From contig NZ_CP027806.1 of the NCBI RefSeq assembly GCF_003353065.1, positions 2,190,501-2,254,500 on the forward strand: 64,000 bases of DNA, in the 5' to 3' direction. Shown in pieces: positions 5,381 through 45,326 of this stretch (the stretch's first letter is position 1; every line of letters begins with the position of its first letter). Position numbers and translations under genes: made by a program. Under the pieces are notes generated by a model that made no database searches, was not told the DNA's origin, and saw only the letters and a program-made list of their open reading frames with translations. This DNA comes from Cyclonatronum proteinivorum. GTDB lineage: Bacteria > Bacteroidota > Rhodothermia > Balneolales > Cyclonatronaceae.

Positions 5381-6523
5381 TCAGGCGTCGGCGTTGAGGC
5401 CAAGCTGTGCGCGAACGAAGGGGCTTACGACTTCACCTGCATGGGTGACCGTGCTGCCTTTCACGATTTCATCTTCGAAATCAAGGGTCAGTTTGCCTTC
5501 TTTGATGATGAGCTCTAACAGGTTGTTCAGGTTGCGCGCATAGAGCTGACTCGCATGCAGCGGGAGGGCTGCGGTGATGTTGGTCGGACCGAAAATGCGA
5601 ACGTTGTGGACTTCTGTGACTTCATCCGCTTTGGTGAGCTCGCAGTTGCCGCCCTGTTCGGCAGCAAGATCGACGATGACCGCGCCCGGCTTCATGCCTT
5701 CGACCGCGGAAGCCCGAACCAGCACGGGCGCTTTCTTACCGGGGATGAGCGCTGTTGTTATGACGAGATCCGACTGCTTCACCCGCTCCTGAATGGCTTC
5801 TTCCTGCAGCTTTTTACTTGCTTCGGAAAGTTCCTTCGCGTACCCGCCGGCAGTTTCTGCCTGCTGATCTTCTTCGGCGAGGGGCACATCCACGAAAGTT
5901 GCGCCGAGGCTTTCCACCTGTTCTTTCACAGAAGCACGCACATCGAAGGCTTCGACGACTGCCCCGAGGCGCTTCGCTGTTGCGATGGCCTGCAAACCCG
6001 CAACGCCTGCGCCGAGCACGAGCACTTTCGCCGGGGCAATGGTGCCGGCGGCGGTCATCATCATGGGCATGTATTTGGCAAGGGCGTCCGCGCCGATGAG
6101 CACAGCTTTGTAGCCCGCAATCGAGCCCATGGATGAAAGCGCGTCCATTTTCTGAGCGCGCGAAATGCGGGGCACCGACTCCATACCCAGCGAAGTAATG
6201 CCCGATTTGAGCAAGGCTTCAACCGTATCGCGGTTTTGGGCGGGCCACAGGAATCCGGCGAAAACGGCGCCGGATTTCATCCGCTTGATTTCATCGGGTG
6301 TCGGGCGGTTGACTTTCAGGATGATGTCAGCGCCTTCAATGGCATTATCGGTAATGACGCAGCCAGCTTCTTTGTAAGCCTCATCCGTAAAGAAAGAGGC
6401 GAGTCCGGCAGATTTTTCAATCCGCACCTCCAGTCCTTTATCGACCCACTTTTGGGCCGTTTCGGGGTTAAATGCTACCCTCGTTTCCCCGGGTCTTGTT
6501 TCTTTTGGTATTCCGATTATCAC
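5381..6523 (-). CDS. pntA: NAD(P) transhydrogenase subunit alpha, NAD-binding part (PntA1)
   Basis: The 380-residue soluble domain I binds NAD(H) and shares the fold of alanine dehydrogenase. Visible motifs are GIPKETRPGETRVAFNPE at the N-terminus and the dinucleotide loop VLGAGVAGLQAIATAKRLGA near residue 170. Later come VDLAAEQGGNCELT and NITAALPLHASQLYARN. The start codon is GTG (6521-6523); no better ATG exists before the conserved IGIPKE segment. It lies first in the pntA1-pntA2-pntB operon, 40 bp before pntA2. No clear promoter was recognised in the repeat-rich upstream region. Confidence 0.96.
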   Translation of the reverse strand: MIIGIPKETRPGETRVAFNPETAQKWVDKGLEVRIEKSAGLASFFTDEAYKEAGCVITDNAIEGADIILKVNRPTPDEIKRMKSGAVFAGFLWPAQNRDTVEALLKSGITSLGMESVPRISRAQKMDALSSMGSIAGYKAVLIGADALAKYMPMMMTAAGTIAPAKVLVLGAGVAGLQAIATAKRLGAVVEAFDVRASVKEQVESLGATFVDVPLAEEDQQAETAGGYAKELSEASKKLQEEAIQERVKQSDLVITTALIPGKKAPVLVRASAVEGMKPGAVIVDLAAEQGGNCELTKADEVTEVHNVRIFGPTNITAALPLHASQLYARNLNNLLELIIKEGKLTLDFEDEIVKGSTVTHAGEVVSPFVRAQLGLNADA

Positions 6524-7016
6524 GATAGATTCGCGAACTCCGTTTTATTGCTTTAAAAAGTAAAGCAAATGGTGAATGGGTTAGTAGAATTTATTTTCAG
6601 CTGAATTAACATCTCCAAAACACGAACAGATTTCAGCCGGATAAGCATTTCAAAATACAGCTTTTATTTGGGATTTGCAGATGTGATCAGGATGCGCAAA
6701 ACGGCAACTCATTAATATTCAGTCTATTAGATGGCGTGGTACTCATTTAGAAGCGCTTTTCAGGCTTTCAAAGTCAGCGGACAATGGATGTCTTACTAAC
6801 AGGCTCAGTCGTAGTATTGAGCAAAGTTACCCGGGCAAGGCTTCCAAAAAGTAAGGCGCCCGTCTTAGGTTTAGGATGCCCTGATCTTCCACGAAAGACC
6901 GTGATGTTCACGGAGTTTCCCCTAAAAATTAAAAAAGCGCGATGTGCCAAACAGGCCGGGTTCAGGCTGAACCATTTTGTCATACATTCTTGTTTAAACA
7001 ATTATTCGAACACTAA
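6524..7016. other. Intergenic region between divergent pntA and quinone oxidoreductase
   Basis: No credible gene was found. Short open frames at 6774-7065 on both strands have no recognisable family and overlap the dispersed repeat. The region holds one copy of the 95-bp repeat and ends at the MITE-like element. Confidence 0.6.
6841..6938 (-). repeat. Dispersed ~95-bp intergenic repeat, copy 1
   Basis: Read on the minus strand it runs from a T-rich start and GGGGAAACTC through GAACATCACGGTCTTTCGTGG to a GGGCGCCTTACTTTTTGG end. The middle part, GAACATCACGGTCTTTCGTG, is identical to copy 2 at 8371-8465. The small hairpin CACG..CGTG lies inside it. Confidence 0.75.
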
Positions 7017-7242
7017 CCCGCATTATTCACATTGGAAAGAGTTTAATTCCCTAAATGGTAGTTAAAATTTAGCTTAGTGAAAAGCTTAAGTTGCTCAAAT
7101 TTGGGTGCGATTCAGACGCTGCGAAATTTCCTCGCTGGCGGCGTTGAAACTGAAAACTCATGCTCAGGGTACTTAGGTACCCTTCCGCTGAGTTTTCAGC
7201 TTCGCCTTGCCAGCAATAAAATTTCTTGGTGAATAATGCGGG
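7017..7242. mobile_element. Complete 226-bp MITE-like element with CTAA target duplication
   Basis: Perfect 14-bp terminal inverted repeats CCCGCATTATTCAC (7017-7030) and GTGAATAATGCGGG (7229-7242) are flanked on both sides by CTAA (7013-7016 and 7243-7246), the pattern of a 4-bp target site duplication. No protein is encoded. The right half is a large imperfect palindrome (7121-7226). Nested arms are GAAATTT..GCTGGC / GCCAGC..AAATTTC, the perfect 11-bp pair CTGAAAACTCA / TGAGTTTTCAG, and GGGTAC-TTAG-GTACCC at the tip. A YTAR target of 4 bp is typical of the IS5 family, so mobilisation by an IS5-like transposase elsewhere is plausible but inferred. Confidence 0.8.
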
Positions 7243-7262
7243 CTAAACCCAAAACTAAAAAT

Positions 7263-7268
7263 CAGGAG
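7263..7268 (+). promoter_or_regulatory. Ribosome binding site
   Basis: AGGAGA lies a few bases before the ATG at 7273. This is a clear Shine-Dalgarno in a window where most starts lack one, and it supports that start. Confidence 0.6.
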
Positions 7269-7272
7269 AAGC

Positions 7273-8229
7273 ATGTCAACAACAATGAAAGCTGCCTTTT
7301 ATGAGCAATTCGGGACGCCGGAAGAGAAGCCGGTCAGGATTGGCGAACTGCCGAAACCAACGGCAGGGGAGGGCGAAATTTTGATTCGGGTGAAGGCTGC
7401 CGGCGTAAATCCCGTTGATGCCTACACCGTGCGCGGGATGCTGAAGGACGCCATTCCGTGCAGGTTTCCGCTGATTCCCGGCTGGGATGTCGCGGGGGTT
7501 GTCGAGGAAACGGGGCACGCAGCCCGTCGTTTCAAAAAGGGGGATGAGGTGTATGCCTACGCGCGGCGCCCGGAAATTCAGCACGGCACCTTCGCGGAGT
7601 ATATCAGTCTGCCGGAGGCGTACGTCGCCAAACGACCTGAAACGTTGAGCTGGGAAGAAGCCGGCGGCATTCCGCTGGTAGCGCTCACGGCCTGGCAGTC
7701 CCTGTTTGATGCCGGCAAGCTCGAAGCTGGTCAGACCGTGCTGATTATCGGGGCTTCCGGTGGCGTCGGTTCGGTCGCGGTGCAGCTTGCCAAAAACGCG
7801 GGCGCGAAGGTCATCGCCGTTGCAAGCGAGCCCAATCACGGATTCCTGAAAGAACTCGGTGCCGACAGCTGCATTGATTACACCATCGACGATGTAGCCG
7901 GTGCCGTCAAAGATGCCGCTGCCGGACCGCTTGATCTTATCTATGATTGTTCGCGCGGCGACGTGCTGTCCAAAACGCACGATTTGCTCAAGGAAGGCGG
8001 GCATTTGATTTCAATCACGAACAGCAAACCGGAGCGCCGGGATGATGTGAACTTTCAGTACGTGTTTGTAGAGCCGAACGCGCCGCAGCTTGATCAGCTT
8101 GCTGCCCTTGCTGATGCGGGCAAACTGAAGATTCACGTATCCAAAACCTACCCGCTCGATCAGGCCGCCGACGCCCTGCGCGATATCGAAAGCCTGCACA
8201 CCAAAGGTAAAATTGTGATTCGTATCTGA
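7273..8229 (+). CDS. NADPH:quinone oxidoreductase-like MDR protein (zinc-free)
   Basis: The 318-residue protein is a medium-chain dehydrogenase/reductase of the quinone oxidoreductase type. The N-terminal GroES-like domain carries GVNPVDAYTVRG and the GWDVAGVV segment. The nucleotide-binding domain carries IIGASGGVGSVAVQLAKNAGAKVIAV near residue 158. The structural and catalytic zinc cysteines of alcohol dehydrogenases are missing, which supports the zinc-free QOR subgroup. It probably reduces quinones or reactive enones with NADPH; the natural substrate cannot be read from sequence. It is transcribed alone, starts just after the MITE-like element and ends at a hairpin terminator, so the element may affect its promoter. 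Confidence 0.85.
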   Translation: MSTTMKAAFYEQFGTPEEKPVRIGELPKPTAGEGEILIRVKAAGVNPVDAYTVRGMLKDAIPCRFPLIPGWDVAGVVEETGHAARRFKKGDEVYAYARRPEIQHGTFAEYISLPEAYVAKRPETLSWEEAGGIPLVALTAWQSLFDAGKLEAGQTVLIIGASGGVGSVAVQLAKNAGAKVIAVASEPNHGFLKELGADSCIDYTIDDVAGAVKDAAAGPLDLIYDCSRGDVLSKTHDLLKEGGHLISITNSKPERRDDVNFQYVFVEPNAPQLDQLAALADAGKLKIHVSKTYPLDQAADALRDIESLHTKGKIVIRI

Positions 8230-23762: not shown

Positions 23763-23859
23763 AGCCCTGAAAGGGCGGCATATCAAAGCCCGGGGTGCCA
23801 ACCCCGGGACTGCGGCCCAACAAGATCGGAGCCCTGAAGGGGCGGCATACTATCGGGAG
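23763..23859 (+). repeat. Triple-hairpin core, copy 2
   Basis: GCCCTGAAAGGGC, CCCGGGGT-GCCA-ACCCCGGG and GCCCTGAAGGGGC occur in order with the same linkers as copy 1 (GGGACTGCGGCCCAACAAGATCG type). A half copy, CCCTGAAGGGGCGGCATAAC, recurs near 24168. Confidence 0.88.
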
Positions 23860-35761: not shown

Positions 35762-35856
35762 AGTCCTGAAAGGGCGACATACCACAGCCCGGGGTACCAA
35801 CCCCGGGAAGAGACCCGACCACACAAGTTGAGCCCTGAAGGGGCGGCATATCATCG
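35762..35856 (+). repeat. Triple-hairpin core, copy 3
   Basis: The outer hairpins are TCCTGAAAGGGC (slightly degenerate) and GCCCTGAAGGGGC. The central hairpin is CCCGGGGT-ACCA-ACCCCGGG. The linker GAAGAGACCCGACCACAC replaces the one used in island 1. Confidence 0.85.
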
Positions 35857-36392: not shown

Positions 36393-36490
36393 AGCCCTGT
36401 AAGGGCGGTATATCACAGCCCGGGGTACCAACCCCGGGAAGAGATCCGACCACACAAGTTGAGCCCTGAAGGGGCGGCATATCATCGGAG
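36393..36490 (+). repeat. Triple-hairpin core, copy 4
   Basis: GCCCTGTAAGGGC, CCCGGGGT-ACCA-ACCCCGGG and GCCCTGAAGGGGC in order. Confidence 0.88.
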
Positions 36491-37045: not shown

Positions 37046-37140
37046 AGCCCTGTAAGAGCGGTATATCACAGCCCGGGGTGCCAACCCCGGGAAGAGACCC
37101 GACCACACAAAATGAGCCCTGAAGGGGCGGCATATCATCG
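37046..37140 (+). repeat. Triple-hairpin core, copy 5
   Basis: GCCCTGTAAGAGC (one mismatch), CCCGGGGT-GCCA-ACCCCGGG and GCCCTGAAGGGGC in order, embedded in a near-identical duplicate of the unit around copy 4. Confidence 0.88.
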
Positions 37141-45235: not shown

Positions 45236-45326
45236 ATGTTATGCCGCCCTTTCAGGGCTCCGTTTTGATGGGCCGTGATCCCGGGGTTGGCACCCCGGGC
45301 TATGGTATGTCGCCCTTTCAGGGCTG
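45236..45326 (-). repeat. Triple-hairpin core, copy 6 (reverse)
   Basis: GCCCTTTCAGGGC, CCCGGGGT-TGGC-ACCCCGGG and GCCCTTTCAGGGC appear in the opposite orientation to copies 1-5. The central stem is intact and the linker resembles island 1. Confidence 0.88.

Follow-up and report, generated by a model that had tools for sequence, protein, structure and literature searches.

The pntA/qor interval

The window, a stretch of 64,000 nucleotides from the Cyclonatronum proteinivorum genome (contig NZ_CP027806.1, positions 2,190,501 to 2,254,500), carries a short repeated element between two divergent genes, pntA and qor. The features discussed here are, in window coordinates:

5381..6523, - strand: alanine dehydrogenase / transhydrogenase alpha gene (pntA-type), 380 aa, upstream (PF05222, PF01262)
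7013..7016, no strand: left target-site duplication CTAA, read from the sequence (the 4-bp duplication is perfect in 100 of 138 family members)
7017..7030, + strand: left terminal inverted repeat CCCGCATTATTCAC
7031..7122, + strand: left arm, fast-evolving; other copies carry one or two 28-bp modules at its right end
about 7123..7225, + strand: long hairpin with outer arms GAAATTT/AAATTTC and tip GGGTAC-TTAG-GTACCC, supported by folding and by compensatory changes across genera
7229..7242, - strand: right terminal inverted repeat, GTGAATAATGCGGG on the + strand
7243..7246, no strand: right target-site duplication CTAA, read from the sequence
7273..8229, + strand: zinc-type alcohol dehydrogenase / quinone oxidoreductase family gene (qor), 318 aa, downstream (PF08240, PF00107, PF13602)
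23763-23808, 35762-35807, 36393-36438 and 37046-37091, - strand: Acido-Lenti-1 (RF01687) matches from Rfam
45280-45325, + strand: Acido-Lenti-1 (RF01687) match from Rfam

The element is 226 bp long (7017-7242). The original prediction had described perfect 14-base terminal repeats, a CTAA duplication, this length, a nested cruciform and an end 26 bp before the oxidoreductase start, and all of these details hold. The sequence at 7017-7030 is the exact reverse complement of 7229-7242 (14 of 14 bases), CTAA stands at 7013-7016 and again at 7243-7246, the tip GGGTAC-TTAG-GTACCC (7167-7182) lies inside a hairpin of 103 bases, and 26 bases (7247-7272) run from the right duplication to the ATG at 7273. 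Exact CCCGCATTATTCAC occurs at only two sites in the window, the two ends of this element; with up to two mismatches there are four sites, against 0.56 in shuffles. As RNA the element has a folding energy with z = -8.3, and none of 200 shuffles folds equally well. No frame of at least 80 aa lies inside it, and the one overlapping frame (93 aa) matched no Pfam family. Rfam matches overlapping the element are two weak ones, far below the gathering score, and none above it. Acido-Lenti-1 is a second repeated family in the window: five matches exceed the gathering score, and three of these lie within about 1.3 kb.

The same gene pair occurs, also divergent, in the same-genus genome G005, the only one of three such relatives (L221-L223) with pntA/qor in the compared stretch. 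There it lacks the element and any terminal repeat, and the spacing is 398 bp against 749 bp in the window. When the element and one CTAA are taken out of the window sequence, its alignment score against G005 rises from 67.5 to 155.5, with flanks in G005 too diverged for a base-exact insertion point.

A modular MITE family in the genome and the order

The window element is a copy of a short non-autonomous MITE family, and the original description as such, with a 4-bp YTAR duplication, is borne out by ends, duplication and copy number. The home genome is a single contig of 4.29 Mb, in which a search for the terminal repeat CCCGCATTATTCAC with at most one mismatch returns 107 forward and 110 reverse sites (0 + 0 for the backwards control). 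A covariance model built on the right half of the element gives 128 matches, opposite-strand self-matches included; counted from its table, 75 separate places score at least 86 bits, which corresponds to about 75 hairpin-bearing copies. The pairs of terminal repeats that the original prediction had proposed to look for are present in large numbers.

Across 12 genomes, 138 distinct elements bounded by the terminal repeat were extracted (ends alike at 11 or more of 14 positions, 60-330 bp, one per place). The terminal repeats agree at 13 or 14 of 14 positions in 127 of them. Duplications of 4 bp are perfect in 100, match at three of four bases in 27 and at fewer in 11; a good duplication is missing in 6 of 70 home copies. 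The perfect ones comprise TTAA (48), TTAG (18), CTAA (14), CTAG (3) and others (17), so that 83 of 100 follow the YTAR pattern and TTAA is the commonest.

The main sizes in the home genome are 226 and 253-254 bp; the longer copies have an extra 28-bp module, GCACCGAGCGAAGCGATTCCCGCGCAGC or a near match, where the left arm ends. Copies of 280 and 282 bp carry two such modules in tandem. The family is therefore modular, with 0, 1 or 2 copies of the 28-bp unit, a feature that is new here. Short home copies (74 to 194 bp) lack the hairpin or an arm partly or wholly; since an internal deletion after insertion would also preserve the duplication, they are no proof that an element can move without its hairpin. 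Elements in relatives are mostly 224-228 bp, and sizes of 92, 239, 248, 254, 255 and 321 bp also occur. In one copy of 178 bp (L247, 1555-1732), another inverted repeat, CTCCGAAAAGTC...GACTTTTCGGAG, stands in place of the left part; it may be a second small element nested there. At about 327690-327767 of the home genome (L085, near 2690-2767), one end of an insertion sequence carrying a 484-aa frame falls within the hairpin tip of a MITE copy, of which only the right end was found.

Placement was scored with a crude ORF caller on 64 of the 70 home elements, those in stretches 2500 bases long or longer. Of these, 63 are between open frames and one is inside a frame. Where both neighbours could be called (n = 60, same crude caller), the four orientations relative to the neighbouring genes number 17, 15, 14 and 14, without a preferred side or direction. 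In a number of home copies (L005, L008, L011, L012, L015, L028 and L030 among them) the frame that this caller draws next to the element stops exactly at the element edge. A stop codon for a neighbouring frame may come from the YTAR duplication, in which TAA or TAG is present.

Within the order, the covariance model matches 36 of 124 genomes, in 13 of 38 genera. In a sample of the phylum 8 of 198 genomes match, seven of them in the order and one, weakly (E 5.5e-4), outside it. The exact 21-base right-end pattern has no occurrence in viral_contigs, and plasmids gave no blastn match to the element. Among 42 home copies of 216-230 bp the median identity to the nearest copy is 94.5%, with three at 98% or more and none identical; the window copy is 93% identical to its nearest relative. 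The corresponding median for 11 copies in G039 is 99.1%. Judged by these identities, the home set appears to be ageing and the G039 set looks like a recent burst.

Ends and target of the IS1380 type

The family was very probably moved in trans, now or formerly, by a DDE transposase of the IS1380 family. A search of genome_contigs with three aligned transposases supplies the evidence; it yielded 311 IS1380-relative loci. In the best 80 of these 311, exact CCCGNATTATTCAY is found at 18 (25 sites; backwards control 0 of 80) and CCCGNATTATTCAY with up to two mismatches at 65 (backwards control 9), and many of the best 80 are complete elements with YTAR duplications. The elements at three Phaeodactylibacter xiamenensis loci (L151-L153) measure 1640 bp, have perfect CCCGGATTATTCAC ends and are flanked by TTAG or TTAA duplications, and at L142, L146 and L181 one end each is the exact window repeat. 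PF13701 loci also occur within the order: L117, 1702 bp long, has CCTGCATTTCTCAC at each end and is flanked by CTAG duplications, and L118 and L119 have CCCGGATTATTCAT. A MITE in G057 (L038) shows a similar variant, CCCGCATTTCTCAC, of the ends. All six transposases tested, the home genome's own included, pass the NCBIfam IS1380 cut-off (NF033539).

IS1380 elements (NF033539; PF13701) thus resemble the MITE in having CCCGNATTATTCAY at one or both ends and a 4-bp YTAR duplication, and target and duplication length are equal in the MITE family and the IS1380 elements with such ends. Since these ends and this target are found on elements with an IS1380 transposase, the end type and target of the MITE match those of one part of the IS1380 family. 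The two differ in that the MITE has no transposase gene and, among the elements examined, shares no sequence with them outside the 14-bp ends: a comparison by eye with 12 IS1380 loci revealed no sub-terminal similarity. As the inner sequence is unmatched in these elements, shared ends and target are claimed and not derivation from IS1380; an IS1380 parent outside the sampled elements is possible. The right end of L151 has an inverted repeat just inside, as does the MITE, with no sequence similarity between the two.

The target of piggyBac is TTAA. IS1380 transposases are described in PMC10140906 as distantly related prokaryotic transposases of piggyBac, and the TTAA preference of the MITE family fits this kinship.

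An insertion sequence with the MITE ends was not found in the home genome. The home IS1380 copies (L071, L079, L080 and L081; 1731-1732 bp, six open frames of 477 aa) have CCTNAATCCGTGA ends and, where readable, duplications of 5 to 7 bp. Ends and duplication length rule them out as the partner, and with these differences the home MITEs now look orphaned. Two target behaviours therefore exist within the IS1380 family, 5-7 bp for the home element and 4-bp YTAR for the MITE-type elements. An IS1380-type gene near a repeat in G008 (L070) was also rejected as partner, the repeat being followed by the MITE's own right-end sequence, and an isolated repeat in L067 is a MITE remnant. IS1380-type genes are present in 21 of 128 genomes of the order and the element in 36 of 124, with 12 having both, in genome sets that may differ.

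YTAR duplications are also made by IS5-family (IS5 group) and IS701-type elements, and the original prediction had taken the target as fitting IS5-family enzymes. Mobilisation of the same MITE by a transposase of either kind could draw on the 28 PF01609 and 9 PF13546 matches in the home genome. Six home IS groups (PF01609, PF13546 or PF13701 type) had their ends mapped by copy comparison, and none has ends like CCCGCATTATTCAC, so IS5/IS4-type and IS701-type partners do not fit. The proposed search for an IS5-family transposase with the same ends gave none among these mapped elements; at other PF01609-type loci, not each of which is assigned to IS5, the exact repeat occurs in one of 23, and that one is a MITE remnant, against 18 of the best 80 of 311 IS1380 loci. 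Mobilisation by an IS5 or IS701 transposase is accordingly highly improbable, and the assignment to IS5 lacks support: CCCGNATTATTCAY ends together with YTAR belong to IS1380-family elements. A YTAR duplication does not by itself identify IS5, and an easy error is corrected here.

Under the IS1380 reading, a transposase of this family would recognise the CCCGNATTATTCAY ends, insert the element at YTAR (mostly TTAA) and duplicate four bases. The matching transposase would since have been lost from the home genome, and the window copy presumably reached the space between pntA and qor by an ordinary intergenic insertion.

The hairpin, possible host roles and known repeats

In 21 of 21 genome pairs, conservation is higher in the right 120 bases than over the element as a whole. 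In an alignment of 66 right halves from 10 genomes (56 of 61 from relatives, where six elements had been omitted earlier, and 10 of 57 from the home genome), the hairpin structure pairs 91.5% of cells, against 81.0% in shuffles. Changes on both sides occur in 23 of 37 pairs and amount to 236 cells, compared with 74.6 ± 8.4 in shuffles (0 of 500 with as many), in a MAFFT alignment that was not fitted to the structure, although the structure was derived from it and kinship inflates the double-change counts. Sliding the pairing partner by 1-3 columns leaves 20-48 double-change cells, and the pair of columns 36-116 uses four Watson-Crick types. These substitution patterns indicate that the hairpin is preserved by compensatory changes across genera, which is new here.

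Such conservation could mean that the element has been domesticated as a regulatory or RNA-coding repeat, its hairpin kept for a host role (a transcribed structured RNA, an RNase III site or a terminator) and its mobility secondary. Both the compensatory pairs and the better conserved right part speak for this. Against it stand the even orientations relative to genes (17/15/14/14), the lack of an Rfam family above the gathering score on the element, and the use of wobbles. With the terminal-repeat pairs and one near-invariant U-G pair left aside, the cells of the per-pair table sum to 42 G-U and 94 A-C, with a single pair contributing 24 of each, and the reverse strand of the hairpin set folds better as a set. 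G-U is not above A-C on the + strand, and with the better folding of the reverse strand this gives no sign of one transcribed strand, so wobble use lends no support to a one-strand RNA function. Long palindromes may also be maintained by template-switch correction or by a need in transposition. A domesticated repeat is unlikely, and selection on the hairpin in hosts across the bacterial order is somewhat less likely still. If such selection did operate, an IS1380-mobilised element would now be a widespread structured unit that acts in regulation or in DNA folding, and the 28-bp module would be an addition to it.

At the locus itself, the window copy lies 5′ of qor and so, by position alone, within its leader or promoter region, to which it is predicted to add strong secondary structure. 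That it serves as promoter or regulatory leader of the oxidoreductase gene is a tentative and rather doubtful proposal. The right end lies just those 26 bp before the AGGAGA-ATG start, and the qor gene of G005 manages without the element, so that the insertion changed the 5′ region. However, promoter-like sites are no commoner than in shuffles (two sigma-70-like sites in the element region versus 1.6), and placement upstream of genes is not conserved across the family. Nothing distinguishes the qor copy from the rest of the family, and an ordinary insertion of an IS1380-type MITE remains the preferred account of it.

The family is apparently new, of a kind that is well known; in the parts of the literature that were accessible to the search, no IS1380-type MITE is described. 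It is a large MITE family with ends and target pointing to IS1380, present in many genomes of one order, burst-like in one relative and aged at home. With compensatory change in the hairpin and both burst and aged sets at hand, it could serve as a test case for the forces that maintain long palindromes in mobile repeats.

ERIC (or IRU) sequences are about 127 bp long, contain a long palindrome and occur in several genera, and BOX elements are modular, their middle unit varying in copy number. The review PMC10969869 names ERIC/IRU as enterobacterial elements and also names the BOX elements of pneumococcus. Like ERIC/IRU, the MITE family is intergenic and present in tens to hundreds of copies; the hosts belong to an unrelated group, and terminal repeats and target duplication point here to a named IS family. 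The modular build is shared with BOX, whereas the unit here is 28 bp, is seen 0, 1 or 2 times and lies between 14-bp repeats with a YTAR duplication. MITEPye1 (PMC11578231) has ends that assign it to IS1182, forms a long stem-loop and has 1-3 chromosomal copies. The present family resembles it in that the ends place a MITE in an IS family and in the long stem-loop fold, and differs in having IS1380-type ends and about 75 hairpin-bearing copies.
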